A stretch of DNA of 64,000 nt, taken from the NCBI GenBank assembly GCA_028284765.1, contig JANQRA010000020.1, positions 62,001 to 126,000 on the forward strand. The letters run 5' to 3'. A model generated the notes under the pieces. That model ran no database searches. It was not told the origin of the DNA and worked only from the letters and a program-made list of their open reading frames with translations. The stretch is from Acidimicrobiia bacterium. Lineage in GTDB: Bacteria; Actinomycetota; Acidimicrobiia; Spongiisociales; ZC4RG35. This document shows positions 9,770-34,123 of the stretch, piece by piece. A program made the translations under genes and the position numbers. How positions within the stretch are numbered: the stretch's first letter is position 1; the number at the start of each line of letters is the position of its first letter.

Positions 9770-10002
9770 CGGAATGAACGGCGGGAGAGGAGATACGGCG
9801 AGGAACGCGAAAACCTTCTGACAAAACCTCAGAAGACAGTTGACGTCGTCTCATCCCACCCCCTAAATTCAAAATGTCAGGCTATTGACTTAAGGCAGCT
9901 GACAAGAGAAAAGGCCGCCTGTTGGTCAGTCTCCCGAGAGCGACGTCACGTTGCCCTGGGGAAGCGGGCCGCCTGGCAAGCCTGTACGAGGAGGAACGGC
10001 AA

Positions 10003-11751
10003 ATGACACGATCCGGGCAGAAACCTTGGCGAAAGCTATTGCTATTAGCGATGGTCTTCGCCCTCGTTGTCGCGGCGTGTTCTGGCGAGACCACGGACAC
10101 AACCGAAGGCGGCGAGACAACCGATACCACAGAGGCAGACTCCACAGATACCACCGACGGTTCCAGCGACACGACTGAACCGGACGATGGTGGTGAGGAG
10201 TTGGTCCTACAGGCAGTCATGTCCGAGGAGGCCACGGACCTGAACCCACTGACGACCGGTCAGCAGGGTAAGGGCCACGTCTTCCAGGCCATATTCATGC
10301 CACTGTTGGAGACTGACAACGAAAAGCAGATCTACTCGAGAACCCTCGAGTCCTGGTCCATGTCGGAAGACGCCAGAACCGCAACGCTGGTTCTGAAGAG
10401 CGACGTTGAATGGAACGACGGGACCCCGATGACGTCCGAAGACGTGTACATGTCATTGACGATGTACCTCGACGCCAACATCAGCAACCGGGCAAACCGG
10501 ATTGGTGGAGTGTTGGGTCAACAGGCGTTCATCGACGGAACTGCGGACACCATCGAAGGTTTGACCATCGTCGATGAGCAGACGGTCACCGTGGATTTGG
10601 AGAACCCAGATGCCGCGTGGCTGCCGAACATCGCCGCACAAGCCGAGGACCTCCCGATCCTCCCCCACCATGTGTTGGGAGATGTACCGCACTCAGAAAT
10701 GCTCGACAACGAGTACTTCCGGACCTATCCCGTTTCGAGCGGGCCGTACCAGCTAGTTCAGTTCGTTGACGGCCAGTTCGCAGAGTTCGTCCGTAATGAC
10801 AACTGGTCACTGGGTACACCAGGATTTGACCGTGTGTTCTTCAGGATCGTCTCAACCGATGTGATGGCCGCTCAGTTGGAGACAGGTGAGATTCAGGTCA
10901 TGTTCCCGGTCGACCCGGCGGATGTGGATCGCATCAGCGGCATCGACGGCGTCACTGTTGGTTCAGAGCAGGGCATCGCACCTGAGCTGTGGTCAATCAT
11001 GTTTGACGATGAAGAGCTCGACGCTCGAGTTCGACAGGCGATGCTGCATGCAATCGACAGAGAGGCAATCTGCCAAGAGGCGATGGCCGGATACTGCTCG
11101 ACGCCTATCACCAACATCCGACAGATCGCACCCGAGTGGTCCATTCCGACAGTCGAGGAATACCCCGACCTGATCGAATACACCTACGACCCCGACCGTG
11201 CCCGTGAACTCCTCGCCGAGGCGGAGGCAGACGGTGCGTGGGATCCGGACACGGAGTTGATCTTCAACGCCCGCCCAGGTCGTAGCTATGTCGACACAGC
11301 GATCGCTATCGCTCAAGCACAGATGGCGGAAGTGGGGATCAACTGGACGATCATCAACACCGACACCGGTGGTCTGATCGACAACATCCGGGAACAGCCC
11401 CTCGGAACCATTGATGGATTCTGGGTCAGCGGAGCCGACTTCACAGTCGACCCGAGTGCTGTGCAGGTCTACACAAGCTGTGAGAACGCCCGTACCGGCG
11501 CCAACCTGATCTCCTATTGCCGTCCTGAGTTGGACGAGCTGTGGGCGGCCGGGCGCCAGACATCGGTCCAAGAAGAGAGAGCCGAGATCTACCACGAGGC
11601 ATTCCGATTCCTCAACCAGGATCCGGCAGAGATCTATCTCTACATCGTCGACTCGATCATCGCCTTTGACTCCCGCATCGAGGGAATCAAGCCGCACGGT
11701 GGCATTGGCCAGCCGTACTGGAACATCGGCGAATGGACGTGGAACGGATAG
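10003..11751 (+). CDS. ABC transporter substrate-binding protein, family 5 (oligopeptide/dipeptide type), lipoprotein
   Basis: Signal peptide with VVAACSG lipobox; SBP_bac_5 pattern (LVLQAVMSEEATDLNPLTTGQQGKGHVFQAIFMPLLE...); RBS GAGGA before ATG 10003. Confidence 0.92.
   Translation: MTRSGQKPWRKLLLLAMVFALVVAACSGETTDTTEGGETTDTTEADSTDTTDGSSDTTEPDDGGEELVLQAVMSEEATDLNPLTTGQQGKGHVFQAIFMPLLETDNEKQIYSRTLESWSMSEDARTATLVLKSDVEWNDGTPMTSEDVYMSLTMYLDANISNRANRIGGVLGQQAFIDGTADTIEGLTIVDEQTVTVDLENPDAAWLPNIAAQAEDLPILPHHVLGDVPHSEMLDNEYFRTYPVSSGPYQLVQFVDGQFAEFVRNDNWSLGTPGFDRVFFRIVSTDVMAAQLETGEIQVMFPVDPADVDRISGIDGVTVGSEQGIAPELWSIMFDDEELDARVRQAMLHAIDREAICQEAMAGYCSTPITNIRQIAPEWSIPTVEEYPDLIEYTYDPDRARELLAEAEADGAWDPDTELIFNARPGRSYVDTAIAIAQAQMAEVGINWTIINTDTGGLIDNIREQPLGTIDGFWVSGADFTVDPSAVQVYTSCENARTGANLISYCRPELDELWAAGRQTSVQEERAEIYHEAFRFLNQDPAEIYLYIVDSIIAFDSRIEGIKPHGGIGQPYWNIGEWTWNG
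10084..10200 (+). repeat. Low-complexity Thr/Asp/Glu-rich linker-coding repeat
   Basis: Encodes GETTDTTEGGETTDTTEADSTDTTDGSSDTTEPDDGGEE. Confidence 0.8.
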
Positions 11752-11764
11752 GACCTCCTCCTAC

Positions 11765-11796
11765 GTTGGGGCTCTGCCTGGTGGCAGAGCCCCAAC
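11765..11796 (+). terminator. Strong perfect hairpin between the SBP and permease genes (attenuator or mRNA stabiliser)
   Basis: GTTGGGGCTCTGCC-TGGT-GGCAGAGCCCCAAC, 14-bp stem and 4-nt loop, no U tract. Confidence 0.7.
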
Positions 11797-11909
11797 AGGG
11801 TGAATAGGAACCGTCCTGATAAGCAACTTCGGCCCAGCGGCTGCAGACGCTGTTATGCCGACTACCTAACCTGACGCAAGGCCACTAGTAGACCGGGAGT
11901 GAGCGAGAC

Positions 11910-12866
11910 ATGCTGAGGTACCTGCTCAGAAGGATCCTTATCGCGATCCCGGTCCTGCTGGGCATTCTCTTCCTCGCCTTCGTCATGACTCGTGCTCTCC
12001 CCGGAGACCCGTTGCTCATGATGATGAGCATCGAAGAGTTCGAAGCTTCGGAGGAGTTCCTTGAAACGCGGAGAGAACAGCTTGGTCTGTCCGATCCCCT
12101 CCCGGTTCAGTACATCACATGGGTCGGAGAGGTAGTCCAAGGCAATCTGGGCGTCTCATTCCATCGACGGGCCAACGTTGCCGAAGTGATCGCCGGGCGC
12201 ATCGGGCCAACAGCGCTATTGACCGGAACCGCAGTCTTCATGGCTCTGGCTGTGGGGATACCAACGGGGGTGATCGCCGCCATAAGGCAGAACAGTTGGT
12301 TCGATTACACATCTGCAGCAGGGAGCATGCTCGCAATCTCGATTCCCAACTTCTTCTTGGGGCTCATGGCGATTTACGTGTTCTCACTTCAGCTCGGATG
12401 GTTACCGACAGGTGGTTTGAACACCCTGGGAGCTGAACCATCCTTCGTTGACTCGCTACGACACCTGATCATGCCAGCGGGAGTACTAGCCGCCGTCTTG
12501 ATCGGCCCCTATGTTCGATACACGAGGCAAAGCATGCTCGACGTGCTCCATCAGGACTACATCACGACAGCCACTGCGAAGGGCGTGAAGCGCTCATCCA
12601 TCTTGATTTTTCACGGATTGCGGAACGCACTCGTCCCCCTCACGACGGTGGTTGCAATCCAAATTCCAGCCCTCCTCGCTGGAACAGTCATCATCGAGAC
12701 CATCTTCACCTGGCCAGGAATGGGACAACTCGTCTTGGAAGGGATCTCGCGACGCGACTATCCAATCATCGTCGGGGTGGTTCTTGTCAGCGCCGTGCTC
12801 GTGATGGTCTTCAACCTTCTCGCCGACCTACTCGCCGCCGTCCTTGACCCGAGGATCAGATTGTGA
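11910..12866 (+). CDS. ABC transporter permease (DppB/OppB-like)
   Basis: MLRYLLRRILIAIPVLLGILFLAFVMTRALPGDP; C-terminal IVGVVLVSAVLVMVFNLLADLLAAVLDPRIRL. Confidence 0.95.
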   Translation: MLRYLLRRILIAIPVLLGILFLAFVMTRALPGDPLLMMMSIEEFEASEEFLETRREQLGLSDPLPVQYITWVGEVVQGNLGVSFHRRANVAEVIAGRIGPTALLTGTAVFMALAVGIPTGVIAAIRQNSWFDYTSAAGSMLAISIPNFFLGLMAIYVFSLQLGWLPTGGLNTLGAEPSFVDSLRHLIMPAGVLAAVLIGPYVRYTRQSMLDVLHQDYITTATAKGVKRSSILIFHGLRNALVPLTTVVAIQIPALLAGTVIIETIFTWPGMGQLVLEGISRRDYPIIVGVVLVSAVLVMVFNLLADLLAAVLDPRIRL

Positions 12867-13819
12867 ACGACGAACGTACTGAACAGATACTCGACGAAGA
12901 GGCCCAGGCGCTGATTGGAGCCGGTGAAGCACCGGACCCCAGAGGCGACATGAAGCGAGCGAAGGCCAAGATCCAGTCTCCAGGACGAATCGCGTGGAGG
13001 CGGTTCCTCCGCCATCGACTTGCGTTGGGCGGAATGGTCTTCGTCGGGATCCTCTTCCTCGTGGCGATCTTTGCCGAGTTCCTCGCACCGTACGACCCCA
13101 ACGTGGTCAACACGTCAGCATTTCGCACCCCACCAAGCTCTGAACACTGGTTGGGCACAGATTCGGCCGGCCGAGACGTTCTCAGCCGCTTGATCTTCGG
13201 AGCTCGAGTCTCTTTGACCGTGGGTGTCGCTGCAGCTCTCTCTGCCCTCGGGCTGGGCACTCTCCTCGGCTTGCTGGCCGGTGTGGTGGGCGGTTGGGTG
13301 GACTCATTCATCATGCGGGCCGTCGACGTGTTCCTCTCTTTCCCGTCGCTCATGTTGATTCTGCTGCTCGTTGCCGTTCTTGGCCCAAGTATCGGAACAA
13401 TCGTGGTGGTCATCGCCCTCTTCGAATGGCCAACGGCGGCCCGCATAGTTCGACAGATGGCCCTGTCGGTCAAAGAAACAGACTTCGTCCTCTCGGCACG
13501 CGCTGTCGGATCGAGCCGCTGGCGAATCATGCGGAAACACGTCGCGCCGGCTGTCCTCTCACCTCTGACAGTCGTAGGAACGTTGCTCGCTGCGCAGGCG
13601 ATACTCCTGGAAGCGGCGCTCTCGTTCCTAGGTCTTGGCGTCAAGCAGCCGCAGGCGAGTTGGGGTGGGATGCTCGAGGAAGCCAAGTCGTTGACCATCC
13701 TGGAGCAAATGCCGTGGATGTGGATTCCGCCAGGTCTCACGATCGCCGTCACTGTCCTCGCGATCAATTTCATCGGCGACGGGCTCAGGGACGCATTCGA
13801 TCCGAGGCAACAGATGTGA
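12863..13819 (+). CDS. ABC transporter permease (DppC/OppC-like)
   Basis: HWLGTDSAGRDVLSRLIFGARVSLTVG; C-terminal GDGLRDAFDPR. Confidence 0.95.
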   Translation: MNDERTEQILDEEAQALIGAGEAPDPRGDMKRAKAKIQSPGRIAWRRFLRHRLALGGMVFVGILFLVAIFAEFLAPYDPNVVNTSAFRTPPSSEHWLGTDSAGRDVLSRLIFGARVSLTVGVAAALSALGLGTLLGLLAGVVGGWVDSFIMRAVDVFLSFPSLMLILLLVAVLGPSIGTIVVVIALFEWPTAARIVRQMALSVKETDFVLSARAVGSSRWRIMRKHVAPAVLSPLTVVGTLLAAQAILLEAALSFLGLGVKQPQASWGGMLEEAKSLTILEQMPWMWIPPGLTIAVTVLAINFIGDGLRDAFDPRQQM

Positions 13820-13829
13820 GCCGGATCAC

Positions 13830-14900
13830 ATGACACAGCGCCCAAACGATTCGTCACGTGAACCCCTACTCGAGGTCCGCAATCTGAACACGACATTCAA
13901 GACTGAGACCGGCACCGTCCAAGCCGTGCGCGGTGTCAACTGGGAGATCTACCCCGGTGAGTTCCTTGGAGTCGTCGGTGAATCCGGGAGCGGCAAGAGT
14001 GTGACGATGGCCTCGATCATGGGCCTCGTACCGACACCACCGGGGTCCGTGGGCGCTGACTCCGTCACGTTCGAGGGTAAGGATCTCCTGTCGCTCAACG
14101 AACGACAGATGCGAAGAATCAGGGGTCACGAGATCTCGATGATCTTTCAGGACCCGATGACGTCATTCAATCCCGTGCACACCATTGGAAACCAGATCTC
14201 TGAAGCGATTCGAGTCCATGACTCGAAGATGACGAGACGAGCGGCAAAGAAGCGCTCGATAGAGTTGCTGTCACTGGTCGGTGTTCCCAGCCCCGAAGTT
14301 CGATTCGCTCAGTTTCCCCACGAGTACTCCGGCGGTATGAGGCAACGGGCGATGATCGCCATGGCGATCGCCAATCAGCCGAAACTGATAATCGCGGACG
14401 AGCCGACCACGGCGCTCGACGTCACGATTCAGGCACAGATACTTGACGTCTTGAATCTGATTCAGGAAGAAACGGACGCGGCGACCATCCTTATCACGCA
14501 TGACCTCGGCCTCATCGCCGAGATGTCAGATCGAGTGCTTGTCATGTACGCAGGAAAGGTCGTGGAGACAGCGACAGTCTTTGAGCTCTTCGCCGATCCG
14601 AAGCATCCATACACGCTCGGGTTGCTTGCAAGTCTTCCTCGATTGGACAGTCAGCTCGACTCGCTTCTGTCAATACCGGGACAGCCTCCTTCCTTGATCA
14701 CTCCACCCACTGGGTGCTCCTTTCATCCACGATGTGACCTGACAAAGGGTCGCTCTGAATGCAGAAGCGAACTCCCGGTGCTCGTTGAAGCCTCCAATGG
14801 CCACCACACGGCGTGCCACTTCTGGGACGAGATGACAGAGATTGCCGAAGTTGTCACTGACACGGTCGGCATAGATGTCAGGTCGAGCGTGGAAACATGA
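13830..14900 (+). CDS. ABC transporter ATP-binding protein (DppD/OppD-like)
   Basis: GESGSGKS Walker A, YSGGMRQR signature, LIIADEPTTALDVT Walker B, oligopeptide C-terminal Cys motif. Confidence 0.96.
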   Translation: MTQRPNDSSREPLLEVRNLNTTFKTETGTVQAVRGVNWEIYPGEFLGVVGESGSGKSVTMASIMGLVPTPPGSVGADSVTFEGKDLLSLNERQMRRIRGHEISMIFQDPMTSFNPVHTIGNQISEAIRVHDSKMTRRAAKKRSIELLSLVGVPSPEVRFAQFPHEYSGGMRQRAMIAMAIANQPKLIIADEPTTALDVTIQAQILDVLNLIQEETDAATILITHDLGLIAEMSDRVLVMYAGKVVETATVFELFADPKHPYTLGLLASLPRLDSQLDSLLSIPGQPPSLITPPTGCSFHPRCDLTKGRSECRSELPVLVEASNGHHTACHFWDEMTEIAEVVTDTVGIDVRSSVET

Positions 14901-15940
14901 CATCGACCGTCGATGTGAGTGCGGACGATCGAATGCCGCTGGGAGAAGAGATGCTCCGGGTCGAGGATCTCAAGGTCCACTTTCCAGTGAAGTCGACCGT
15001 GCTGCGTCGCAAACTCGGAGAGGTCAAAGCTGTCGATGGGATCGATCTGGAGCTGGCTGCAGGCGAGACGCTAGGCCTGGTCGGCGAATCCGGATGCGGA
15101 AAGTCAACCACGGGGCAGGCCATTCTCCGTCTCATCGAACCCACCGCTGGGAAAGTCATCTTCCGAGGAAGAGATATCACGGCGATCAGCAGACGCCAGA
15201 TGAGCCCGCTGAGACGAGAGATGCAGATCGTGTTGCAAGACCCCTTCGCATCACTCGATCCGAGGATGACGGTCCGCTCGATCATTGCCGAACCGCTGAA
15301 GGTTCATGGCGTCTACACGTCGGGCAAGGACCGAAGGAAGCGTGTCGACGAGCTCCTCGAGCTGGTGGGGTTGAGCAGCGAGCTCGGCTCCCGGTTTCCC
15401 CATGAGTTTTCTGGCGGGCAGCGCCAACGAATTGGGATCGCTCGCGCCCTCGCCCTGAATCCTCAGCTGTTGATTCTCGATGAACCGGTTTCCGCACTAG
15501 ACGTGTCCATCCAGGCACAGATCATCAACCTGCTGGAAGAGCTTCAGAAAGAGTTCTCCCTTGCCTATCTGCTGATCGCCCACGACTTGGCGGTGGTCAA
15601 ACACATCTGTGATCGCGTTGCGGTCATGTACCTCGGCAAGATCGTTGAGACCGGAACTCGTGACGAGATCTACAACGACCCCACGCATCCGTACACGCAA
15701 GCTCTGCTCTCAGCGGTCCCGACTCCGGATCCGGCCAAGCGTGACGACAAGACGCGCATTCTGCTCGAGGGCGATGTGCCAACTCCAGAGAATCCGCCGT
15801 CAGGGTGTCGCTTCAGGACAAGGTGTTGGAAGGCGCAACCCGAGTGTGCCGACGAAGTCCCAGCTCTGATCGACCGAGAGGGACTCGGTCATCCGAGTGC
15901 CTGCCTTTTTCCAGAGTCGATCGCCGCAGAAGATCTGTGA
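14897..15940 (+). CDS. ABC transporter ATP-binding protein (DppF/OppF-like)
   Basis: GESGCGKSTTG, FSGGQRQRIGIARAL, LLILDEPVSALDVS, GCRFRTRCWKA. Confidence 0.96.
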   Translation: MTSTVDVSADDRMPLGEEMLRVEDLKVHFPVKSTVLRRKLGEVKAVDGIDLELAAGETLGLVGESGCGKSTTGQAILRLIEPTAGKVIFRGRDITAISRRQMSPLRREMQIVLQDPFASLDPRMTVRSIIAEPLKVHGVYTSGKDRRKRVDELLELVGLSSELGSRFPHEFSGGQRQRIGIARALALNPQLLILDEPVSALDVSIQAQIINLLEELQKEFSLAYLLIAHDLAVVKHICDRVAVMYLGKIVETGTRDEIYNDPTHPYTQALLSAVPTPDPAKRDDKTRILLEGDVPTPENPPSGCRFRTRCWKAQPECADEVPALIDREGLGHPSACLFPESIAAEDL

Positions 15941-17016
15941 GAGCCCTCGTCGCCAAGGGATTGGGTGACCTGGAGCTTCTCGACTTGCCGGAACCGACCG
16001 CACAGCCCGGGCAAGTGCTAGTCAAGACGATGATCACAGCGGTCAGCGCTGGGACCGAACGACGCATGGTCTACGGCCGGCCGAACGATTTGCGGGAGCA
16101 TGCGCCGGACTTCCCCGTTGAAGGTGGATTCGGGTATCTAGCTGCTGGTGAGATCCTCGAGCTGGGTCGAGGTGTCGAGGGCTTGAAGGTTGGCGATCGA
16201 GTCAGCGCCGGAAGAGCGTGGGGCGCCCACCGCGAGATTCTCGATACGGACGCAACGTCTGTGATCCCAGTGCCAGACACCATGAGCTACATGGAGGCCG
16301 CAGCGTCGTATTGGGCAGTACCGCCGTTGGCGGGGATCCTGGCAACCAAGCCCCGCATCTACACAAACTCAGCGGTTGTCGGGCTTGGGCCTCTAGGTCT
16401 CTGCGCCGTCCAGATCCTCGCTCGATCCTCTCGGCGCGTGCTCGCGGTGGACATCGTGGACTCGAGAGTCGAAAAGGCGAGATCATTTGGCGCGGTGGGA
16501 GTCAACACGACCACTGACAGCATGCAAGAGGTCCTCGAGTCGGAGATGCCAGCCGGGCCAGAGGTCGTGATTGAGGCTTCAGGAACGCAGGCAGGGCTCG
16601 AACTCGCGTTAGACATCGTCGCCCCTCTCGGGAGAATCGCCCTCGTTGGCGTGCCCCCGCCTCTCGAGGGCATGAATCTGTTCTGGCCCATGCAGCACAA
16701 GGGAGTCGAGCTAGTGCCACTGGCGCGTGAGTCCACCACGTCGCCTCAAGGTGGTGGTGCTGGAAGCCCACGTGCTACCTACCTTCCCGATGCGCTGGAC
16801 ATGATCAGCCGGGGCATCTTGGACATCGACGCTATGACCAGCTGGGTCGTCTCCATAGATCATGCCGTGGAGGCTTTCGACCTACTCAACAATCGTCCCG
16901 ATGAAGTACTTGGCATCGGGTTCGCCTGGGACTCGAGCCTCACGTCGGGCCAGGAGCGATTCGACGCCCTCAGAGTTGCTGCACAGACCACGGACCAACA
17001 AGAAGCTGATGAATAG
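15937..17016 (+). CDS. Zinc-binding dehydrogenase (MDR superfamily)
   Basis: GTG start at 15937 overlaps the upstream stop (GTGA); RALVAKGLGDLELLDLPEPTAQPGQVLVKT, VVGLGPLGLCAVQILA. Confidence 0.88.
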   Translation: MRALVAKGLGDLELLDLPEPTAQPGQVLVKTMITAVSAGTERRMVYGRPNDLREHAPDFPVEGGFGYLAAGEILELGRGVEGLKVGDRVSAGRAWGAHREILDTDATSVIPVPDTMSYMEAAASYWAVPPLAGILATKPRIYTNSAVVGLGPLGLCAVQILARSSRRVLAVDIVDSRVEKARSFGAVGVNTTTDSMQEVLESEMPAGPEVVIEASGTQAGLELALDIVAPLGRIALVGVPPPLEGMNLFWPMQHKGVELVPLARESTTSPQGGGAGSPRATYLPDALDMISRGILDIDAMTSWVVSIDHAVEAFDLLNNRPDEVLGIGFAWDSSLTSGQERFDALRVAAQTTDQQEADE

Positions 17017-17824
17017 CGACGCGAGACCGGACAGCCACCTCGAACAACATGTGAGAGCTCTGGGATTGAATGGGTTCACGACAGTCAAGGGCGTCGTCCC
17101 GCCTGGTGAGGTCGATGCCGTCCGCCAATCAGTTGCTGACACCGTCGAGCGGATATCCGGGTACAGCGAGGCTGGCGTTGGGTTCCTCGCAACGGTGCTC
17201 AATCACGATCAATCCATAGTCCCCTATCTGGTCAGCCCAGAGCTGCGCGGACTGGTCGATCGGATGCTCGGCAGCTTTGCGCATGTGTCTTTTGCCTCGG
17301 CGATCATCAACGCTCCCGGCAATGACAGGGGAAAATGGCACGCCGACTGGCCGTTCAACCAGGAGCTCGCAGGAAGAGTCGCAGCGCCGTATCCCGACGC
17401 AGTGATGCACCTGACGTCCCTCTGGATGCTGTCCCCCTTCTCGATCGAAACTGGAGGAACCCTCGTCGTTCCTGGCTCCCATCGGAGCCCAAACAACCCG
17501 ACGGGTGAGAACGGCTACGACCGGTACGCTCCGGTGCCTGGAGAGACAAACGCTGTTGGGGCCGCAGGGGACGTTCTGGTGTTCGATAGTCGGCTTTGGC
17601 ACGCAACCGCGCCCAACATGACCGATCGACCCAGAGTGGCACTTGCTATTCGCTTCGCTCCCTGGTGGCTCGATGTCAGTGTGCTGCGGCCCGGGAGTCG
17701 CAAACGCAAGCAAATGGTCGATGAGACAGGCGGAATCGAGAACGAAGCGCCTTGGCTGAACAGCGATGTGTATGACGGGCTTCCAGACAACATGCGGTCT
17801 CTCTTCCGCCACATGCGCGCCTGA
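17009..17824 (+). CDS. Phytanoyl-CoA dioxygenase (PhyH)-family protein
   Basis: MNSDARPDSHLEQHV...; KWHADWPFN and DSRLWHATAPN iron-ligand motifs, GTLVVPGSHR. Confidence 0.88.
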   Translation: MNSDARPDSHLEQHVRALGLNGFTTVKGVVPPGEVDAVRQSVADTVERISGYSEAGVGFLATVLNHDQSIVPYLVSPELRGLVDRMLGSFAHVSFASAIINAPGNDRGKWHADWPFNQELAGRVAAPYPDAVMHLTSLWMLSPFSIETGGTLVVPGSHRSPNNPTGENGYDRYAPVPGETNAVGAAGDVLVFDSRLWHATAPNMTDRPRVALAIRFAPWWLDVSVLRPGSRKRKQMVDETGGIENEAPWLNSDVYDGLPDNMRSLFRHMRA

Positions 17825-17826: not shown

Positions 17827-19869
17827 TCAATCAAGCAGTATGTCCCGGGAGACCTCGTCGACCGATGCGACTCCACAAAGCCTCATCGACTCGACCAACT
17901 CTTGTGTGATCAGCTCGATCACCCTTTGGACACCCGCTTCTCCCGCGGCTGCAAGGCCCCACCAAACGGGTCGGCCGATCAAACCGGCACGAGCTCCCAT
18001 GGCGAGCACCTTGAGGAGGTCAGTCCCACTTCGGATTCCACCGTCTGCGAGGAGCTCCATCTTGTCCCCCTTGACCTCGAGTGCGCTTGCGATCACGTCG
18101 TACGCACTCACACTGCTGTCCAACTGCCGACCGCCGTGGTTGGACAGGATCACCGCGTCGATCTCGGCCTCGGCGGCAAGTCGGACATCATCGGGATGGA
18201 GTACGCCCTTCAAGACGATGGGCAACTCCGATACAGAGCGAATCCACTCGACGACTTCCCATGTCAACCGGCGATCGATACCACGACGGCTGGCGTCCGG
18301 GTCCAAATGGACGAACTCGACTTCTGGTGGGACGACCAACGGCTGGTGCAGTTCTCTCAGCCGGGTCGGCATTCCTGCATGGTCGACCGTCAGGCACAAG
18401 GCTCTGGCGCCGCTTCCCTCCGCTCTCTTGAGGATGTCCTCCATGTGTCGTCGATCCGGAGACATGTAGAGCTGCATCCAGAAAGGAACGCCCTCAGCGG
18501 CTACACGTTCCATTGTCGTCGAGGAGTTCATGGACAGCACCATTAGAAGGCCCGCTTCCTTGACGGCGCGCGCCGTGGCCACCTCGCCATCACGGTGCGC
18601 GAGTCGTTGCACCGCTGAGGGAGCAATGACCAATGGAAAGGCGAGGCCCTCTCCGAGCAGTGAGGTGTGGGTCCTGACCTCGTGGACATCGCGCATCACC
18701 CGAGGAACGAGACTGACCGAATCGAGACTCTGACGATTCCTTCCGACCGACGTCTCGAGCCCGGCTCCACCGGCCACGTATCCGAAAGTGGCATCGGAGA
18801 GGACAGCTTGGGCAAGATCCTCGAACTCGTCGACGTGATGGATCCGGGACACCTCGAAGTGTTCGGTTTCATCCTCGTGGCGTTCGACGAGGCCGGCGCC
18901 TTCGAGTAGCTCGAGAACGCGCTCCGCGGTGGCGTGATGCAGCTGGTCCCTTGACTCGCGGGAAGCACCGGCGACGTGCGGTGTTTGTATCACGTTGCGG
19001 TGACTTGATAGCGGGTCGGAAGCTGGATTGGGTGGTTCAGGATGTCGGACGTCGAGGGCGGCCACCGAGACTCGACCGCTATCTAGAGCATCGAGCAAGG
19101 CCCGCTCATCGACGATCGCTCCTCTGGAGACATTGACCAGTACGACACCCTCCTTCATCTGGGCAAAGGCATCCGGTCCAAGTAGCCCCCGAGAGCTCGG
19201 GTTCAAATCTGCACAAACCACGATCGCGTCGGATCTCTCCAACAACTCGACCAGAGGTACGTGCTCGATGCCGGCGGCAGCGTCAGGACTGACAGTCCCC
19301 CTATGCGTCATCGGCCGGGGACGCCGGCCCGTGGCTAAGACTTCGAACCCAAACGCCTTTGATCGTGCAGCCACAGCCCGTCCGACCCTCCCCGGGCCGA
19401 CCACGCCAAGTGTCTGACCACGCAATCGGCGTAGCTCGGACCTTTCTGCGACCTCGAGCGACGACCAGTTTCTGGCCTTGGCTACGTCGTTGAGGACGAC
19501 GATCCTGCGCTTGGCCGCAAGCAACAACGCCATGGCATGATCTGCGACCTCCTCGGTGCTCACCGCAAGATTGAGCACGGGCAGATCCGCCGCTTCCGCC
19601 GCAGCATGGTCGATGTGCTCTGTCCCTGACTGGGCTGCAACGATGCCAACGCAAGCGCTCATCTTCTCAATATCGCTGGCGGTAACCTCGTCGAGACCAG
19701 CAGCCACCACAACGGAAGCCTCACTGATCAGCTCGTTGCGCTGGTCCCGATTCTCTGGCACAACCAGGTCGACACCTCTAATTGCGAGCAATTCGACTTC
19801 GGTGGCGTAGTCGAAATCTGAGACCCAACTCAGCGGATCAAAGACGACGACGCACGGGCGCTGACTCAC
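17827..19869 (-). CDS. Fusion: N-terminal D-2-hydroxyacid dehydrogenase, C-terminal FMN-dependent alpha-hydroxyacid dehydrogenase/oxidase
   Basis: One 680-aa ORF. N-half RGQTLGVVGPGRVGRAVAARS, NVSRGAIVDERALLDAL, IQTPHVAGAS; C-half FPLVIAPSAVQRLAHRDGEVATARA, LPIVLKGVLHPDDVRLA, ILSNHGGRQLD, LLADGGIRSGTDLLKVLAMGAR. Confidence 0.9.
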   Translation of the reverse strand: MSQRPCVVVFDPLSWVSDFDYATEVELLAIRGVDLVVPENRDQRNELISEASVVVAAGLDEVTASDIEKMSACVGIVAAQSGTEHIDHAAAEAADLPVLNLAVSTEEVADHAMALLLAAKRRIVVLNDVAKARNWSSLEVAERSELRRLRGQTLGVVGPGRVGRAVAARSKAFGFEVLATGRRPRPMTHRGTVSPDAAAGIEHVPLVELLERSDAIVVCADLNPSSRGLLGPDAFAQMKEGVVLVNVSRGAIVDERALLDALDSGRVSVAALDVRHPEPPNPASDPLSSHRNVIQTPHVAGASRESRDQLHHATAERVLELLEGAGLVERHEDETEHFEVSRIHHVDEFEDLAQAVLSDATFGYVAGGAGLETSVGRNRQSLDSVSLVPRVMRDVHEVRTHTSLLGEGLAFPLVIAPSAVQRLAHRDGEVATARAVKEAGLLMVLSMNSSTTMERVAAEGVPFWMQLYMSPDRRHMEDILKRAEGSGARALCLTVDHAGMPTRLRELHQPLVVPPEVEFVHLDPDASRRGIDRRLTWEVVEWIRSVSELPIVLKGVLHPDDVRLAAEAEIDAVILSNHGGRQLDSSVSAYDVIASALEVKGDKMELLADGGIRSGTDLLKVLAMGARAGLIGRPVWWGLAAAGEAGVQRVIELITQELVESMRLCGVASVDEVSRDILLD

Positions 19870-20762
19870 GAGTCGAGTACGGGAGTCCTCAGCGCGCCGA
19901 TTCCCTCGATGCTCCCAATCATGACGTCGCCGGACTTCAAGAATCGGCCAGAGGCAGCCCCGACACCGGCCGGTGTACCGGTTGCAATGATGTCGCCAGG
20001 TTGAAGAGTCGTGAACCTCGATATGAATTCGATGAGGTCGGAGCAGTCGAAAATCATCGTTCCGGTAGAAGCATCTTGGGTGACTTCATCGTTCAATTGG
20101 AGTCGCATCTGGAGATCATGAGGATCTGAGATCTCGTCCGACGTGACGATCCATGGCCCGGTCGGAGAGAACGTGTCGAGCCACTTTCCGGCGAGCCAGT
20201 CGAAGAACCCGTCCCACGCCTGCACTTCCCTATCTTCGAGTCCCCACTCCATCGAACGTGCTGAGATGTCGTTGAGGATGGTGTAGCCCCCAACGTGCGA
20301 GAGGGCTTCCTCCCGCGAGACTTCCCTTGCGGTTGAGCCGATGACAATCGCCAGCTCCAACTCCCAGTCCACTTCATTGGAGACGTTTGGTAGCAACAAC
20401 GGCTCATCCGGGCCGATGAGAGCCGTTGTTGGTTTGATGAATATGCGCGGAGTGCGACGGTTCTTGTCGACCTTCGTACCGCCGCCTTCGTCGATGTGAG
20501 CCTGGTAGTTCCCGGCTGCAGCCAGAACCTTCCCAGGGTTCGGGATCGGAGTCAGCAGGGTGACATCCCCCAGCTCGTGATGTGGAACCGATGGGATCAG
20601 AGCTTCCAGTTGCGACTGCCAACCCGGAAGTCGCAACAATCCGAGCACGGACTTTGGCAGCGAACCGCCACTAGCTCTCCCGACATCGATCACACCATCC
20701 TCGATGGTGATGATCCCGGCGCGAGGCTCAGATCCATCAACGGTGAATGTTCCCAATCTCAT
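19866..20762 (-). CDS. Fumarylacetoacetate hydrolase-family protein
   Basis: KVLAAAGNYQAHIDEGG, EVDWELELAIVIGSTAREVSREEA, GDIIATGTPAGVG; start chosen at MRLGTFTVDG. Confidence 0.92.
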   Translation of the reverse strand: MRLGTFTVDGSEPRAGIITIEDGVIDVGRASGGSLPKSVLGLLRLPGWQSQLEALIPSVPHHELGDVTLLTPIPNPGKVLAAAGNYQAHIDEGGGTKVDKNRRTPRIFIKPTTALIGPDEPLLLPNVSNEVDWELELAIVIGSTAREVSREEALSHVGGYTILNDISARSMEWGLEDREVQAWDGFFDWLAGKWLDTFSPTGPWIVTSDEISDPHDLQMRLQLNDEVTQDASTGTMIFDCSDLIEFISRFTTLQPGDIIATGTPAGVGAASGRFLKSGDVMIGSIEGIGALRTPVLDS

Positions 20763-20811
20763 TGTGTTGTCTTCTCCTTGTCGAATGCTCGCCCGCGCCT
20801 CGAGACGCTCT

Positions 20812-22110
20812 TCATCTCTCCAAACCTGCCACGTCCAGCGGTCCGCCTTCTGATTCAAACTCGGCATCGACGTCGGCCCGAAGAGCCGGATCGGCGAGAT
20901 AGTCGAGGGCGGTCGCGGCCAGCCCATACGCTCCGTTGAGGACTCCAGCGTCACCGCTCGAAGAACCTGCATACTCAGCGAACTCGGCCGTGTGAATAGG
21001 AACCGTCTTCGGCGCAACCGTCACCTTCGGATGGATGGACGGGACTCGAACGCTCACGTTGCCCATGTCAGTAGAGCCTGAAGGGACTGGCGATCTGAGC
21101 GGCATCGGCTCTCCCTTCTCCGCCTGGGATAGTGCAAATCGATTGGCGAGAACCATGTTGTTGCGCACCGGCAGGGCGATTGGGTTCAGGTCCCAGTTCA
21201 CTTCCACGTTCGTCCCTGTACCAGCGGCCGCCGCGTGGAAAATCGCATCCATACGATCGGTGAGTTCGACCAGAGTGTCAACGTACCTAGACCTGACGTA
21301 GTACATGGCTGCCGCATGATCAGGGATGATGTTCGGCTTCTCCCCGCCATGGGTGATCACCCCGTGGATTCGATCGTCGGGTAGCAATTGTTGGCGGAGT
21401 TGACCGATCATCGTGTAGGCCGCAACGCAGGCGTCGAGAGCGTTCCGGCCCATGTATGGAACCGCCGATGCGTGTGCGCCTAGCCCATGAAACGAGACTT
21501 CGACCTGTCTCATGCCCAGATAGGTGCATGCAGCCGATGGCGAGCCAGCAGGGTGGACCATCATGGCGCAGTCGACATCATCGAACCCGCCTTCGCGAGC
21601 GATGAGTTCCTTTCCACTGCCGCCCTCCTCTGCAGGGCAACCGATCAGCCTGACGCTGCCTCCCAATTCATCGACCTGTGCAGCTGCAGCAAGGAACCCG
21701 CCGACGGCTGCTGCACATATGACGTTGTGACCACAGCCGTGGCCGATGCCTGGCAATGCGTCATACTCGGCGAGGATGGCGACACGCGGACGGCCGTCCC
21801 CCGCGGTTGCTACGAAAGATGTTTCAAGGCCGAAAACACCCACTTCGGCCTGCACGCCATTCTTGGAGAGCATCCCCGCCACAGATGCGGCAGCATGATG
21901 TTCGTTGAAAGCGGTTTCCGGGTTGGCGTGGATCGTATGAGACAACGACAGCAGATCGGACTCGATCTCCTCGAGAGTCCTGAGGATTAACTCCCTGCGC
22001 TCCGGGCCGGCCCCTTCCCGTTCGGGGAAGACATCAGCTTGATCATCGTCAGAGACGAGACGCTCGAGGTACTTCTCGTATGCCTGAGGTCGATTCAGAT
22101 TCCTGTTCAT
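20812..22110 (-). CDS. M20-family amidohydrolase (AbgB/ACY1L2-like)
   Basis: ILAEYDALPGIGHGCGHNVICAAAVGG, GCPAEEGGSGKELIAREGGFDDVD, GAHASAVPYMGRNALDA. Confidence 0.9.
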   Translation of the reverse strand: MNRNLNRPQAYEKYLERLVSDDDQADVFPEREGAGPERRELILRTLEEIESDLLSLSHTIHANPETAFNEHHAAASVAGMLSKNGVQAEVGVFGLETSFVATAGDGRPRVAILAEYDALPGIGHGCGHNVICAAAVGGFLAAAAQVDELGGSVRLIGCPAEEGGSGKELIAREGGFDDVDCAMMVHPAGSPSAACTYLGMRQVEVSFHGLGAHASAVPYMGRNALDACVAAYTMIGQLRQQLLPDDRIHGVITHGGEKPNIIPDHAAAMYYVRSRYVDTLVELTDRMDAIFHAAAAGTGTNVEVNWDLNPIALPVRNNMVLANRFALSQAEKGEPMPLRSPVPSGSTDMGNVSVRVPSIHPKVTVAPKTVPIHTAEFAEYAGSSSGDAGVLNGAYGLAATALDYLADPALRADVDAEFESEGGPLDVAGLER

Positions 22111-23630
22111 TCCTTCTCGACTCCTATTCGGCGCCCAGCTACGAGGACCATCTCGATCCCTCGAGGCGCGGTACGGGGATTGTCGTAATCATCAGTCCCG
22201 GTCACCGTCTCCGGATCGAATACGACGAGATCCGCTCGCCTACCCGGCTCGATGATGCCGCGATCTGACAACCCATACGCATCTGCTGGCTTCCCGCTCA
22301 TCTTGTGCACAGCGTCACCAATCGAAATGAGTCCCTTCTCCCGTGCGAGGTCACCCAGAACTCGGGTGAACGTGCCGAAGCCTCTTGGGTGAGCTTTGGA
22401 ACCGACGTATACGCCATCGCTGGCGATGAGAGTGCGGGGGTCAGCGAGAGTTCTCTTCATGATGGCGTCCCACGAAACGTCAGGTGCCTGCCAGGCATAG
22501 ATCAAGACACCGCACGGCATCTCGTGTTTGAGCAACTCCACGGCAACACGACCAACCGTCGTTCCCCATTCGTCGGCAATCGACCCAAGGGTGCTTCCTT
22601 CATGCTTGCCGCTTGTCGTCCCGGCAACGATGACCTGCTTGTCGACACCACCAGTCAGTCTTTCCTCAAGGTGCGAAGCCAACTCTGACGCGAGAGCCTC
22701 GTCATGGGTGAGCTTCTGAGAAAGCTCTGTGACTCCATGTGCCAGAAGCCTCGGAGGAACATGAAATGCAAGCGAGGTGCAGCCAGCGGGGTACAAGTAA
22801 GAATCTACGGTGACATCTGCGGTTTGATTGACCTGGTCGAGAAGGGCCAAGCCATCCTCGTCGAGACGCTCGTGGGCGATTCGCACTCCCGCACCAGTTC
22901 TCCGGCCGACCTCCGCGGCCTCAACCCATGCCCCGTCTCGACCCGCGTCGAGGAGTCGAATGTGACTGGCATACACACCACCTCGATCGGCGACGCGCTC
23001 GACCAACTCGACCAGCTCGTTCGTCTCCGAAAAGCGACCCGGTAAGTAGTCGAGGCCCGTTGCGAGCCCAACGGCACCGGCATCGAGCCAATCGGCAACC
23101 ATCACATGCATGCGCTTCATCTCGGACGGCCCAGGCTTGTGTTGCGAATCGCCCATGACGGCCGCTCGGACGTTGTTGTGTGGAACCATCGGTACCACGT
23201 CAGACAGGCTGCCCTTTCTGAGGTCTGCCAGGAACCCGGACGGGGTGTCCCAGCGTGGCAATGGGTCGAGCAGTGGCCCGTAGATCGCTGCGGTGTCTTC
23301 CCACCAGCGGTTGCTCGACTCTTCTGCCAACCCCACCCAGCCAAAACCGTCTGCTCCAGTCAGCGTCGTCGTGACCCCTTGTGCCGTGAGAGCAGTTCGG
23401 TCTGGATGACCTTTGATCGACGCCATCTCGATGTGAGTGTGCGTGTCGATGAATCCCGGAGCCAACACTTTGCCCCCAAGGTCGATCGTGTCTTGCCTCG
23501 CGGCGCTGGAAAGGTCGCCCACAGCTGCTATCTGCCCATCGGAGACTCCGACTTCTGCCGGCGTAGGGACAGCCGATGGTCGGCCATCGATCACCGCAGC
23601 ATTCGATAGGACGAGATCAAATGGCCTCAC
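22107..23630 (-). CDS. D-aminoacylase-type amidohydrolase
   Basis: LAPGFIDTHTHIE, TGLDYLPGRFSETNELVEL, MSGKPADAYGLSDRGIIEPGRRADLVVFDP. Confidence 0.88.
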   Translation of the reverse strand: MRPFDLVLSNAAVIDGRPSAVPTPAEVGVSDGQIAAVGDLSSAARQDTIDLGGKVLAPGFIDTHTHIEMASIKGHPDRTALTAQGVTTTLTGADGFGWVGLAEESSNRWWEDTAAIYGPLLDPLPRWDTPSGFLADLRKGSLSDVVPMVPHNNVRAAVMGDSQHKPGPSEMKRMHVMVADWLDAGAVGLATGLDYLPGRFSETNELVELVERVADRGGVYASHIRLLDAGRDGAWVEAAEVGRRTGAGVRIAHERLDEDGLALLDQVNQTADVTVDSYLYPAGCTSLAFHVPPRLLAHGVTELSQKLTHDEALASELASHLEERLTGGVDKQVIVAGTTSGKHEGSTLGSIADEWGTTVGRVAVELLKHEMPCGVLIYAWQAPDVSWDAIMKRTLADPRTLIASDGVYVGSKAHPRGFGTFTRVLGDLAREKGLISIGDAVHKMSGKPADAYGLSDRGIIEPGRRADLVVFDPETVTGTDDYDNPRTAPRGIEMVLVAGRRIGVEKE

Positions 23631-24727
23631 TGAAGGGCTCCGCGGGCGGCCAAGGGAATCACATCCACGACAACTCCGTCTCTCACACCGAGGAACTCGT
23701 TGTGCAAGACGGTGGTGGCGTCGCTGTAACCCGGAATGAACTTGAGTCGGTCGCCTATCTGTGGATCCGAACCATCCGGGAGGTCCAAGCGCATGTGCTC
23801 CGCGTATAGCTGTGAGACCTCAGACCTGTTGATGTCGACGCAGATCGGCTTCATGATTTTGTCGGGAAGCGCTTTCCACCCCGCGTCGAGTATCGCCTCA
23901 CGCTCAGTAGGTCGAGAACCGACGGCGGCAACCGCAAAAAGGGCATTTGCGAGGTCCACCCCGCACATCTCCCGATAGAACCTGTCCATGAGGCACCCGC
24001 CTCCCGCCTGGATTTCAGTGACACCATCTATCGCAGAGGTGATTTCAAAGCTACCGGTGCCGCCGCAACTGACGATGTCCACATCGATGCCGCTGTCCCG
24101 GATCGCTTCAGCCGCCTTCACCACCCGGCTGACCGCCTCATTGATGGCTCTTGATTTCTCGTCGGTTGAGGAGATCGTGAGGAGATGACCCTCGTATCCC
24201 ATCACCCCAGCAAACGGAAGCCCAGAGGCGACGATTTTCTCCGCCAAAACAACGGCGTCCTCAGTCGATCGCACACCTGCCCTCGACATGCCGATATCGA
24301 CTTCGATGAGAAGCGGGATCGATTGGCCAGCTGAATGGGACGCCACTTTGGCAAGCTCTAGATGCTCCGGGCTATCGATGGTGGCCGCGGCCCAGGCACT
24401 CTCCTGGAGTTCGGCCAACCGCAACCAAGCCTGTTCTGTGCTGGGCTGATTAGCGATGAGTATCTGATCAATACCTCCGGCCGCCATCACCTCCGCCTCC
24501 CCGACTTTGGCGCAGGTGACACCAATCGCCCCAGCCTCGACCATTTTCTGAGCGAGAAGAGGGGACTTGTGCGCCTTTATGTGGGGTCGCCAGTCCAGCC
24601 CGCGACGAGCCATGTGCCCGGCTAGCACTGAACAATTGGCTTCGAAGGCGTCCAGGTCCACAACCAAAGATGGGGTCGGCAACGAGGAAACCTCTAATCC
24701 GATGCTCGGATGCTGGCGGTCATTCAC
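23627..24727 (-). CDS. D-threonine aldolase/alanine racemase N-terminal-fold PLP protein
   Basis: LPTPSLVVDLDAFEANCSVLAGHMARRGLDWRPHIKAHKSPLLAQKMVEAGAIGVTCAKVGEAEVMA; metal-site-like C-terminus. Confidence 0.88.
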   Translation of the reverse strand: MNDRQHPSIGLEVSSLPTPSLVVDLDAFEANCSVLAGHMARRGLDWRPHIKAHKSPLLAQKMVEAGAIGVTCAKVGEAEVMAAGGIDQILIANQPSTEQAWLRLAELQESAWAAATIDSPEHLELAKVASHSAGQSIPLLIEVDIGMSRAGVRSTEDAVVLAEKIVASGLPFAGVMGYEGHLLTISSTDEKSRAINEAVSRVVKAAEAIRDSGIDVDIVSCGGTGSFEITSAIDGVTEIQAGGGCLMDRFYREMCGVDLANALFAVAAVGSRPTEREAILDAGWKALPDKIMKPICVDINRSEVSQLYAEHMRLDLPDGSDPQIGDRLKFIPGYSDATTVLHNEFLGVRDGVVVDVIPLAARGALQ

Positions 24728-24748
24728 AAGTTTGCTCCTCTGTCAGAT

Positions 24749-26335
24749 TCATCGGATCGCGACGCCGGCCCTTTCTGCTGTCAGGCAGCCGTTCTGCATC
24801 GCCCAACTTCCGTTGACCATTACGTCTCTGATCCCGGCTGGTTTCCTACTGGGGTACTTCTCTGTCGCCTCGTTCGCTATCGAGCCTTCGGAGAAGACAA
24901 CCACATCGGCCTTTTTCCCGGACGCCAGCCTTCCGCGATTCCGGATGCCAAGACGTCCGGCAGGTATGGAGGTCGCCTTCGCCACGGCCTCGGGCAGCCC
25001 AATGACCCCTCTGTCGCGGACATAGTCTCCAAAAAGAAGGGGAAACGTGCCAAAGGTCTTGGGCATCAGCCCGAGATGTGAGTGCTCTACCGGATGGGCA
25101 GACATGCCGTCCGTCACCGGGACACATGCCTTGTGCTGGAGCAGCGTGTCGAGGTCTTCCTGGCGCTTGATCGTCGGGGCTACCCAGAACTGCGGATCTG
25201 TTCGGAGCAGCTCCACAGCCCCGTCTGCGGGTGAGAGGCCGGCATCGCGTGCAAAACCCCCGATGGTGATACCGACCATCCATGCGGCGCTTCGATCACC
25301 GACTTTGACGATCTGATCGTCGTCCCAGTCACGCTCCGCTTCCTTCAACTCCTCGCTGAGTCTCCTTCGGTGCTCCGGATCATTGAGGCGCTCAACTAGA
25401 ACGGAGAGACCACCTGCCAGGGCCCAGCGCGGCAAAGATTGAGAGAAGGCCCCACCTCCTCTGGTGAACAGGGTGAGATCGAAGGTCGCCTTACCTCCCC
25501 TGGCGTTCTCGTCGTCGATCAGGTCGAGCATTGCCCTTGCCTCATCAACCGGGTCGCTTGTGCTCGGGTAGAGATGGGAGACATTGACGTGCGTATCGGC
25601 TGCTCTGCCCGTCGCGAGGGCCTCTTCCAGACTCTCGATTGTTGGCTGGCCGCCGTAACGCATATGGGTGTGATAACTACGTCCTGCGAGTCCTGCCTCC
25701 TTGGCGATGGCGACGATCTCATCGAACCGTGCATATAGACCGGGCGGGTACGAGAGACCGGTGCTGACGCCCATGGCGCCTTGCTCGATGCTCGACCGCG
25801 CAAGGCGAGCCATCAGCTGAGTCTCCTCCGGAGTGGGTGGTCGGTCTTCAGATCCGACGGCGAGCCTCCGGAGGGTGTTGTGACCCACGAGTGTGCCGAC
25901 GTTTGTACGGGGCGAGGTCAGTTCGATGGTGTCCAAGTACTCCGCTGTTGAATCCCAACCCCAGACAGTCGGAGCGCCGTCGGCGCCTGGGAAACCGAAC
26001 ACGGGCTCTTCTTGTCGAAGACTCTCTCTCGTCTTGTCGTCGGTAGGAGCGGCCGAGAATCCGCAATGCCCCACGATCTGCGTCGTGATCCCCTGCCAAA
26101 CAGCGCTGACACAGTCGGGATCGGACAGTGCCGAAACGTCGGAATGTGTGTGCAAGTCGATGAATCCAGGCGACACAACGCAACCAGAAGCGTCAAATCT
26201 CTGTGCATCCGCTATCGGTTCGGAGTTGCCAACCCCGGCGATCTCATCACCGACAATGAGGAGACTCCCTTGGAATGGCTCACCCCCAGAGCCGTCGACG
26301 ATCACTCCGCCCTCTATCACGGTCCTCTCAGCCAA
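24749..26335 (-). CDS. D-aminoacylase-type amidohydrolase
   Basis: VSPGFIDLHTHSDVSALSDPDCVSAVWQGITTQIVGHCGFSAAP, GVSTGLSYPPGLYARFDEIVAI, GRLGIRNRGRLASGKKADVVVF. Confidence 0.9.
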   Translation of the reverse strand: MAERTVIEGGVIVDGSGGEPFQGSLLIVGDEIAGVGNSEPIADAQRFDASGCVVSPGFIDLHTHSDVSALSDPDCVSAVWQGITTQIVGHCGFSAAPTDDKTRESLRQEEPVFGFPGADGAPTVWGWDSTAEYLDTIELTSPRTNVGTLVGHNTLRRLAVGSEDRPPTPEETQLMARLARSSIEQGAMGVSTGLSYPPGLYARFDEIVAIAKEAGLAGRSYHTHMRYGGQPTIESLEEALATGRAADTHVNVSHLYPSTSDPVDEARAMLDLIDDENARGGKATFDLTLFTRGGGAFSQSLPRWALAGGLSVLVERLNDPEHRRRLSEELKEAERDWDDDQIVKVGDRSAAWMVGITIGGFARDAGLSPADGAVELLRTDPQFWVAPTIKRQEDLDTLLQHKACVPVTDGMSAHPVEHSHLGLMPKTFGTFPLLFGDYVRDRGVIGLPEAVAKATSIPAGRLGIRNRGRLASGKKADVVVFSEGSIANEATEKYPSRKPAGIRDVMVNGSWAMQNGCLTAERAGVAIR

Positions 26336-26380: not shown

Positions 26381-27673
26381 TCACGTATAATCCGCCCGAA
26401 TCGAAGACGCTGTACGGCTTCCGGTTGAGACCTCACCCACAACGTCACCAAGGTCTTGCAAGTACGGCGTGACCGCAGGGGAATGGCCGAGAGACTGCAT
26501 GAACCGAATGCAAGGAACCGGCCACGTATCACGGGAGACCAACCATCCCCGTTCTTTCAGGCCGTCCGCTATAGCGAACATGTCCAAGGAATCAGACGTA
26601 AAGGCAAAGACGGTCATGGCCGGCTCACCCATCACCCGGAGACCCTCGATGTCGTCAATACCCTGCTGGAGTCTCCTCACAAAATCCAACGACTCCCTAA
26701 CTATCCGTTGGTAGCCGGCCCGACCGAGATACCTGAGCACGGCCCAGGCCGCGGCGATAGCTCCGCCGGGCCTTGTTCCTGTCATGCTTGGAGTCACGTA
26801 CCAGTCCGGATTGCGTTCCGGTGCGCCAAAGCGAAACTCCTGGTGAGAGTAGATCTCCGGATCCCGCGAGACGATGACGGAGGCACCTTTGGCGCCATAT
26901 CCGAACTTGTGCAGATCGGCGGAGATCGTCGTCACTCCAGGCGTGCGGAAGTCAAAGGTCGGGAAGACCTCTCCAACATCTTCTGCGAATGGAAGAAACC
27001 AGCCGCCGACACACGCATCGACATGGAAGTTGATGTCTCGCTCTATTGCTAGTGCGGCCATCGTGGGGATTGGGTCGACCATTCCGAGCGTGAGACTTGG
27101 AGCAGAACCGACGAGCAGGACAGTGTTGTCTGTGACGGCTGCTTGGTACGCCTCCAAATCCACCTGATGCTGTGAGTCGAGCGGAACCTTCTTCACGTCG
27201 AGGCCGAAGTAGTGGCCGCCCTTCCAAAACGCCGGATGAGCTGATGCTGGGACCACCATCTCGGGCTTGTCGATCTCTGGATGTGTAGCGCGAGCTCGGT
27301 CGCGAGCCGATTTGATGCCCATCAGAATGCTCTCCGAGCCGCCGGAAGTCACGCTCCCAACTGCATCGGGGCCGTGGAAGAGATCAGCTGCGAAGTCGAT
27401 GATGTCCCGTTCGAAAGCTGCCAGACCTGGGTAGTAGCCCGCATATAGAGCATTAGTCGAGAAGAATCGGAGGTAGGCATCCTTGGCAACATCGAGCACA
27501 TCCTGTGACGGGTAGTAGTTGACGCCGGCTGCCATCCGGCTTCGCCATTGCACTTGTCCTTCAGAGGCAGCAGCAAGCAGTTCGCTGACCTCACCTTGGC
27601 TGAGACTGTCCTTAGGCAGTTTCGCCCGCTCGGGTGGATCCTCTCTGGGTGATGTTGTGGCCAATCGAGCCAT
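26381..27673 (-). CDS. PLP-dependent group II decarboxylase/sphingosine-1-phosphate-lyase-like protein
   Basis: GSVTSGGSESILMGIKSARDRAR, FHVDACVGGWFLPFAEDVG, SADLHKFGYGAKGASVIV; ATG 27673 preferred over TTG 27688. Confidence 0.88.
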   Translation of the reverse strand: MARLATTSPREDPPERAKLPKDSLSQGEVSELLAAASEGQVQWRSRMAAGVNYYPSQDVLDVAKDAYLRFFSTNALYAGYYPGLAAFERDIIDFAADLFHGPDAVGSVTSGGSESILMGIKSARDRARATHPEIDKPEMVVPASAHPAFWKGGHYFGLDVKKVPLDSQHQVDLEAYQAAVTDNTVLLVGSAPSLTLGMVDPIPTMAALAIERDINFHVDACVGGWFLPFAEDVGEVFPTFDFRTPGVTTISADLHKFGYGAKGASVIVSRDPEIYSHQEFRFGAPERNPDWYVTPSMTGTRPGGAIAAAWAVLRYLGRAGYQRIVRESLDFVRRLQQGIDDIEGLRVMGEPAMTVFAFTSDSLDMFAIADGLKERGWLVSRDTWPVPCIRFMQSLGHSPAVTPYLQDLGDVVGEVSTGSRTASSIRADYT

Positions 27674-27687
27674 CCCGACGCTTGGCA

Positions 27688-27700
27688 AATGTCGGACGTA
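27688..27700. promoter_or_regulatory. Putative GntR/FCD operator
   Basis: AATGTCGGACGTA at the head of the 27.7-to-17.8 kb minus-strand operon. Confidence 0.55.
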
Positions 27701-34120: not shown

Positions 34121-34123
34121 CTT

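Follow-up and report, generated by a model that had tools for sequence, protein, structure and literature searches.

Nickel lactate racemases (LarA) are a known route by which 2-hydroxy acids are inverted. Inversion can also proceed through two oxidoreductases of opposite stereospecificity, as with SlcC and ComC, which, according to the passages on them in PMC12421959 (citing Denger & Cook 2010) and PMC6303947, convert sulfolactate from S to R via the 2-oxoacid. SlcC is a member of the D-2-hydroxyacid dehydrogenase (D-2HADH) family, like one half of the fused protein described here, but SlcC and ComC are separate proteins and ComC is NAD(P)-dependent, whereas the partner domain in the fusion belongs to the FMN-dependent family FMN_dh. 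The two-step reaction that we propose below, (S) oxidation followed by NAD(P)H reduction to (R), has been assembled in an engineered deracemisation cascade from an FMN-dependent (S)-2-HADH and an NADH-dependent (R)-2-keto acid reductase (PMC5034429); unlike the fusion, this cascade is artificial, uses separate enzymes and has a reductase that depends on NADH. Deracemisation of pantolactone likewise combines FMN oxidation of the L form with NADPH reduction to the D form, by an FMN-dependent L-pantolactone dehydrogenase and an NADPH-dependent conjugated polyketone reductase (PMC10384591), but its substrate is a lactone, its enzymes are separate and its reductase is not a D-2HADH. PbfF, an NAD-dependent racemase of the pfam02826 family acting on an aminohydroxyphosphonate (PMC12366243), belongs to the D-2HADH family and flips the configuration of a carbon carrying a hydroxyl group, first oxidising and then re-reducing it; it does so with one domain and NAD+ for both steps, whereas the fusion has a second, FMN-type domain.

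Fusion of neighbouring genes for consecutive steps is known from the ALDH-ADH proteins AdhE and BdhE, two independent fusions of adjacent genes whose products handle a common intermediate, with channelling supported by structures (PMC12454647). They represent different enzyme families, and while their channelling is backed by structures, that of the fusion reported here is hypothetical. Its C-terminal half is a full homolog of the EC 1.1.3.15 group (4-hydroxymandelate oxidase, HAO1, glycolate oxidase), which provides the best fold matches and whose catalytic residues it carries; members of that group occur alone or with a heme domain (flavocytochrome b2), whereas the half described here is joined to a D-2HADH domain and has a short loop 4 (soluble type). 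A search of one open-access library found no paper on a single chain combining D-2HADH and FMN_dh, and a word search of the D-2HADH family classification (PMC6303947) found no mention of fused members. The initial annotation knew of no described enzyme with this architecture but called for a search. Its impression holds for the single-chain form, which appears undescribed in the literature searched, but not for the chemistry, which is known from separate enzymes.

Architecture of the fused gene

Within the window, a stretch of 64,000 nucleotides from an Acidimicrobiia bacterium, the interval 17827-19869 holds a 680-aa open reading frame, as initially annotated. It lies on the minus strand, with a GTG start at 19869 and a stop at 17827; the plus strand of the interval has many stops. 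All motifs quoted in the initial annotation are present in the translation, and the two modules it described both match curated Pfam profiles, confirming that a D-2HADH and an FMN_dh are joined in one reading frame. The chain runs from the D-2HADH half through a linker of ∼20 residues to the FMN-dependent L-2-hydroxyacid oxidase/dehydrogenase half (Table 1). Many D-2HADH and FMN_dh models of NCBIfam match the protein, but no match reaches the cutoff of its model, and neither half is therefore a member of a named equivalog. The usual stereospecificity of the two families is opposite (Pfam; stereospecificity here is a family habit), and the earlier reasoning that they usually act on opposite stereoisomers holds.

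Table 1. Features of the fused gene, its operon and related genes in the window
Feature	Positions	Strand	Basis
N-terminal D-2-hydroxyacid dehydrogenase half, residues 1-325	18895..19869	-	Pfam PF00389/PF02826, CtBP1 alignment, loop and triad comparison
Interdomain linker, residues 326-345 (GLVERHEDETEHFEVSRIHH)	18835..18894	-	Low pLDDT 326-334, codons, GC3, start of standalone G136 homolog
C-terminal FMN-dependent 2-hydroxyacid oxidase/dehydrogenase half, residues 346-680 and stop	17827..18834	-	Pfam PF01070, residues, fold match
FAA-hydrolase family gene (FAAH), 298 aa from inferred ATG (ORF 19866-21017), GTGA 4-bp overlap with fusion start	19866..20762	-	Pfam PF01557
M20 family amidohydrolase, operon member	20812..22110	-	TIGR01891 above cutoff
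Amidohydro_3 (N-acyl-D-amino-acid-deacylase-like), operon member, 4-bp overlap	22107..23630	-	Profile search
Fold-III PLP enzyme (DSD1 / 3-hydroxy-D-aspartate aldolase-like), operon member, 4-bp overlap	23627..24727	-	Below cutoff
Second Amidohydro_3 gene, operon member	24749..26335	-	Profile search
PLP decarboxylase / aminotransferase-V-like gene, probable first gene of operon	26381..27688	-	
Peptide-type ABC transporter, transcribed divergently, with solute-binding protein, two permeases and two ATPases; probably serves uptake for the operon	9922..15940	+	Pfam SBP_bac_5, ORF sequences
Standalone D-2HADH paralog, closest relative found of N half (46% identical), NAD-type loop	35536..36630	+	Sequence and tree comparison

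The C half matches FMN_dh (PF01070) over residues 353-678 (E 1e-106; profile positions 1-348 of 350). As placed by alignment to solved lactate oxidase and 4-hydroxymandelate oxidase structures, its catalytic and FMN-site residues Tyr364, Ala419, Tyr468, Asp496, Arg503, Lys554, His578 and Arg581 are present and correspond, in that order, to Y24, A79, Y129, D157, R164, K230, H254 and R257 of glycolate oxidase. Asn448 occupies the position that we take to be equivalent to Trp108 of glycolate oxidase. AlphaFold predicted this half with confidence (pLDDT mostly above 90), and the prediction superposes on HAO1/glycolate oxidase and mandelate oxidase with TM-scores, normalised by target, of 0.90-0.96 (0.92-0.96 for HAO1/glycolate oxidase); the N half and linker are less confident (mean pLDDT 81, pTM 0.61; linker residues 326-334 below 50). 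The N half matches 2-Hacid_dh_C (PF02826) at residues 113-300 (E 3e-48) and 2-Hacid_dh (PF00389) at residues 31-325 (E 6e-12), and alignment to the solved structure of CtBP1 showed an intact Arg249/Glu278/His298 triad. Both catalytic sets are thus complete; loss of either had been named at the outset as an argument against a bifunctional enzyme.

In the D-2HADH family, the loop after GxGxxG sets the preference for NAD vs NADP, and members are mostly reductases, nearly all natural dehydrogenases using NAD+ only (PMC6303947). In the N half, the GxGxxG motif (GPGRVG, 155-163) is followed by the loop ATGRRPRP (about 179-186). This betaB-alphaD loop lacks the NAD-specifying Asp, which family membership does not require. 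The label 'NAD-type' in the initial annotation would suit the paralog encoded elsewhere in the window, whose loop reads ASDPVHPD, but not this half, for which NADP(H) is more likely than NAD as cofactor; by the published rule, the missing Asp predicts NADPH use and a role as reductase. All four of the other fusions described below have a VRRRPTG-like loop, likewise without Asp. Unfused D-2HADHs paired with FMN_dh genes in Arthrobacter, Advenella, Chelatococcus and Nitratireductor retain the Asp (NAD-type). A general rule that D-2HADHs partnering FMN_dh are NADP-type was rejected, as the NAD-type Asp occurs in about half of the unfused plasmid pairs.

Other fusions and unfused pairs

Homologs of the two halves are not always separate proteins; had they been, this would have counted against the fusion. 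Four genomes of the same class (G283, G257, G248 and G291) encode full-length fusions of 686-700 aa in which a D-2HADH domain is likewise followed by an FMN_dh domain, the Pfam domains having been checked in two of the four. Fused genes are thus found in at least 5 of roughly 1,100 genomes examined, a lower bound because the larger surveys scored only the best few candidates per genome. A survey of the phylum of G755 with the full-length query (349 genomes, scoring limited to the top few candidates in each) detected no fusion, and G000 was the only genome with one among 34 of the family and 138 of the order. In GC-rich DNA of this kind, long stop-to-stop reading frames alone are no evidence of fusion, and further apparent fusions (L027, L142/L152, L143 and L153) were discarded: their N-terminal extensions, although in frame with FMN_dh, match no D-2HADH and are read as over-extended frames. 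A 1355-aa open frame in G171 was also rejected as a fusion, since it resolves into two separate ORFs ∼50 bp apart.

To trace each half, we built separate maximum-likelihood trees. The C half of the window protein is the neighbour of an FMN_dh that stands alone in G136 (58% identity; support 100/100), and the N half groups with standalone D-2HADHs from the same genome as the window (46% identity), from G136 and from G135 (100/99). Long branches were flagged in the N-half tree, but its result is consistent with that of the C-half tree, and the nearest neighbours stand out clearly. In both trees, the other four fusions form clades separate from the window fusion, the label 'fused' requires at least two changes, and bootstrap trees with a single change amount to 0%. 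The trees therefore require two independent origins of the fusion, with the same domain order. Close relatives of the second fusion keep D-2HADH and FMN_dh as unfused, adjacent genes in that order (∼5 bp apart in G159, ∼50 bp in G171, adjacent in G230), so it was neighbouring genes that fused. Outside the window's own genome, both halves have their nearest homologs in G136, where these lie on different contigs; joining its contigs C34 and C90, which would give an adjacent pair, was rejected because the start of C90 lacks the missing FMN_dh end.

The second fusion (L147 6998-9058, L148 7455-9515, L149 5703-7778 and L150 1548-3650) lies near genes for a luciferase-like monooxygenase, an AMP-dependent (CoA) ligase, a glyoxalase-family protein and a P450. 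As this neighbourhood differs from that in the window, the fused unit has served in different pathways. This lineage has Ser in place of the conserved Tyr (glycolate oxidase Y129), and two of its members also have Phe in place of Y24; the chemistry of its flavin half may therefore be altered.

Unfused pairs were also found on plasmids. In Burkholderia multivorans the D-2HADH and FMN_dh genes overlap by 4 bp, in Arthrobacter agilis the pair is followed by FAAH, in Streptomyces the two genes are neighbours, and in Advenella they stand directly after an annotated L-arabinonate dehydratase; in Diaphorobacter, Chelatococcus and Nitratireductor, one gene lies between them or the order differs. The Advenella genes (A. 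kashmirensis conjugative plasmid pWTk445, L167 1950-5823: L-arabinonate dehydratase, D-2HADH and alpha-hydroxy acid oxidase in tandem) form a candidate C2-epimerising sugar-acid pathway. Because the query contained both halves, these plasmids show that the pairing recurs and overstate its frequency: the FMN_dh genes most similar to the fusion mostly have no neighbouring D-2HADH, and in FMN_dh loci fetched regardless of pairing (L128-L133, L151-L154) the comparisons made showed no D-2HADH match close by, the nearest being ∼6 kb away (L128).

Gene neighbourhood and possible functions

The fused gene is the last of a tight minus-strand operon running from 27688 to 17827, with 4-bp overlaps at 23627/23630, 22107/22110 and 19866/19869. 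Two Amidohydro_3 genes flank the fold-III PLP gene, which resembles 3-hydroxy-D-aspartate aldolase and D-serine dehydratase (22107-26335, minus strand); together with the divergent peptide-type ABC transporter, these genes suggest uptake and breakdown of N-acylated D-amino-acid-like compounds. A phytanoyl-CoA-dioxygenase-family gene (16862-17824, plus strand) converges with the fused gene, their 3′ ends being 2 bp apart. The surrounding region (1311-43688) is a dense catabolic island with three D-2HADH sequences (1311-2336 on the plus strand, the fusion and the standalone paralog), a TPP-dependent decarboxylase/acetolactate-synthase-like gene, CoA-transferase III, DHDPS-like and HpcH/HpaI aldolases, a molybdenum hydroxylase trio (31856-35559, minus strand), an aldehyde dehydrogenase and two GntR/FCD regulators. 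It also encodes an Ldh_2 L-2-hydroxyacid dehydrogenase (29606-30670, minus strand) distantly like L-sulfolactate dehydrogenase (NCBIfam, below cutoff), which, with the standalone D-2HADH paralog 5 kb away, is a possible second, unfused inversion pair. Elsewhere, FAAH recurs near related genes (42% identical in G136, downstream of D-2HADH; 39% in Arthrobacter), and the partners include IlvD/EDD dehydratases (G136, Advenella) and enolase-superfamily enzymes (G136, Diaphorobacter). These partners hint at sugar-acid-like substrates; the deacylases and PLP enzymes of the window operon point more to acylated D-amino-acid-like compounds.

There is a nearly even chance, in our estimate, that the fusion is a bifunctional redox enzyme whose two activities together invert a chiral 2-hydroxy acid at C2. 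Oxidation of the L (2S) acid to the 2-oxoacid would fall to the C-terminal FMN half, with O2 or some other acceptor taking up the electrons; the N-terminal half would then turn the 2-oxoacid into the D (2R) acid, NADPH being the most likely reductant, and so supply the next enzyme of the pathway. Stereoinversion is supported by the independent origin of the same join in relatives, by the complete active sites of both halves, by the unfused neighbouring pairs and by the engineered cascade in which this chemistry works with separate enzymes. The direction from L acid through 2-oxoacid to D acid is favoured by the loop without Asp, the predominance of reductases in the family and the FMN oxidation of L-2-hydroxy acids with oxygen, which is in practice irreversible. 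The common substrate of the two halves, the direction, the use of NADPH and any channelling are inferences. The inversion suggested by the initial annotation is plausible and is improved by the evidence from cofactor, phylogeny and context, with two changes besides that of the cofactor: flavin oxidation would not feed NADH reduction directly, the reductase spending separate NADPH, and the reverse direction is unlikely since flavin oxidation is in practice one-way. Glycolate is improbable as substrate, because with achiral glycolate and glyoxylate the two halves would run a futile, NADPH-wasting cycle and because Asn448 stands at the Trp108 site; the substrate is likely a chiral 2-hydroxy acid. 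Counting against inversion, the window operon, with its acylases, PLP enzymes and FAAH, names no such acid, purely catabolic oxidation would also fit it, and the fusion is rare.

Such oxidation could involve both halves, the FMN half acting on the L isomer and the N half on the D isomer with NAD(P)+, so that both enter catabolism as one 2-oxoacid. The position of the gene in a catabolic operon beside an importer fits this idea, and the Arg/Glu/His triad of the N half supports either direction. The four unfused partner D-2HADHs with the loop Asp, which are NAD-type, also speak for oxidation of both isomers; the fused versions, however, lack that Asp, and most characterised family members are reductases, almost all dehydrogenases being restricted to NAD+. 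We consider this account unlikely.

It is likewise unlikely that two unrelated pathway steps were fused for co-expression with no common intermediate; for example, the FAA hydrolase could release an L-2-hydroxy acid for oxidation by the FMN half, and the N half could use another 2-oxoacid. FAAH does overlap the start of the fused gene, its best NCBIfam match (below cutoff) is 2,4-didehydro-3-deoxy-L-rhamnonate hydrolase, and the G136 homologs, on their different contigs, are not a demonstrated pair. Against this, a second lineage has the same pairing although its gene neighbourhood is different; what belongs together would thus seem to be the two halves rather than the pathway.

The junction and its implications

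A missed stop or frameshift at the junction had been raised as an objection to a fused enzyme. GC and GC3 are even along the whole gene, including codons 281-360, no homopolymer was found at the junction, and frame +1 is interrupted by 27 stops and frame +2 by 15, so the composition of the sequence gives no sign of one. The assembly comprises 23 contigs, and the linker contains an in-frame GTG (Val340) near the start site of standalone relatives, both of which would fit the joining of two separate neighbouring genes by a missed stop or an assembly indel; with frame and GC3 continuous across the junction and independent full-length fusions in four other genomes, such an artefact is very improbable. 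We conclude that the fusion is most probably not an assembly accident, the comparative evidence being the strongest argument.

Taken as a whole, the account in which a single chain inverts its substrate, FMN irreversibly oxidising the L acid, NADPH reducing the product to the D acid and the 2-oxoacid passing between the fused sites, and in which this arrangement evolved at least twice from neighbouring genes, is possible but doubtful. If true, it would add a further inversion design beside LarA, PbfF and separate dehydrogenase pairs, with flavin oxidation and nicotinamide reduction in one chain. Inversion would then run in one direction only, at the expense of NADPH and of O2 (or a different acceptor), and the protein would be a ready-made counterpart of the biocatalysis cascades assembled from separate enzymes. 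In catabolic clusters, those for sugar acids among them, neighbouring genes often carry no annotation beyond 'hydroxyacid dehydrogenase' and 'alpha-hydroxy acid oxidase'; for such neighbours, the recurrent pairing also suggests what their function might be.
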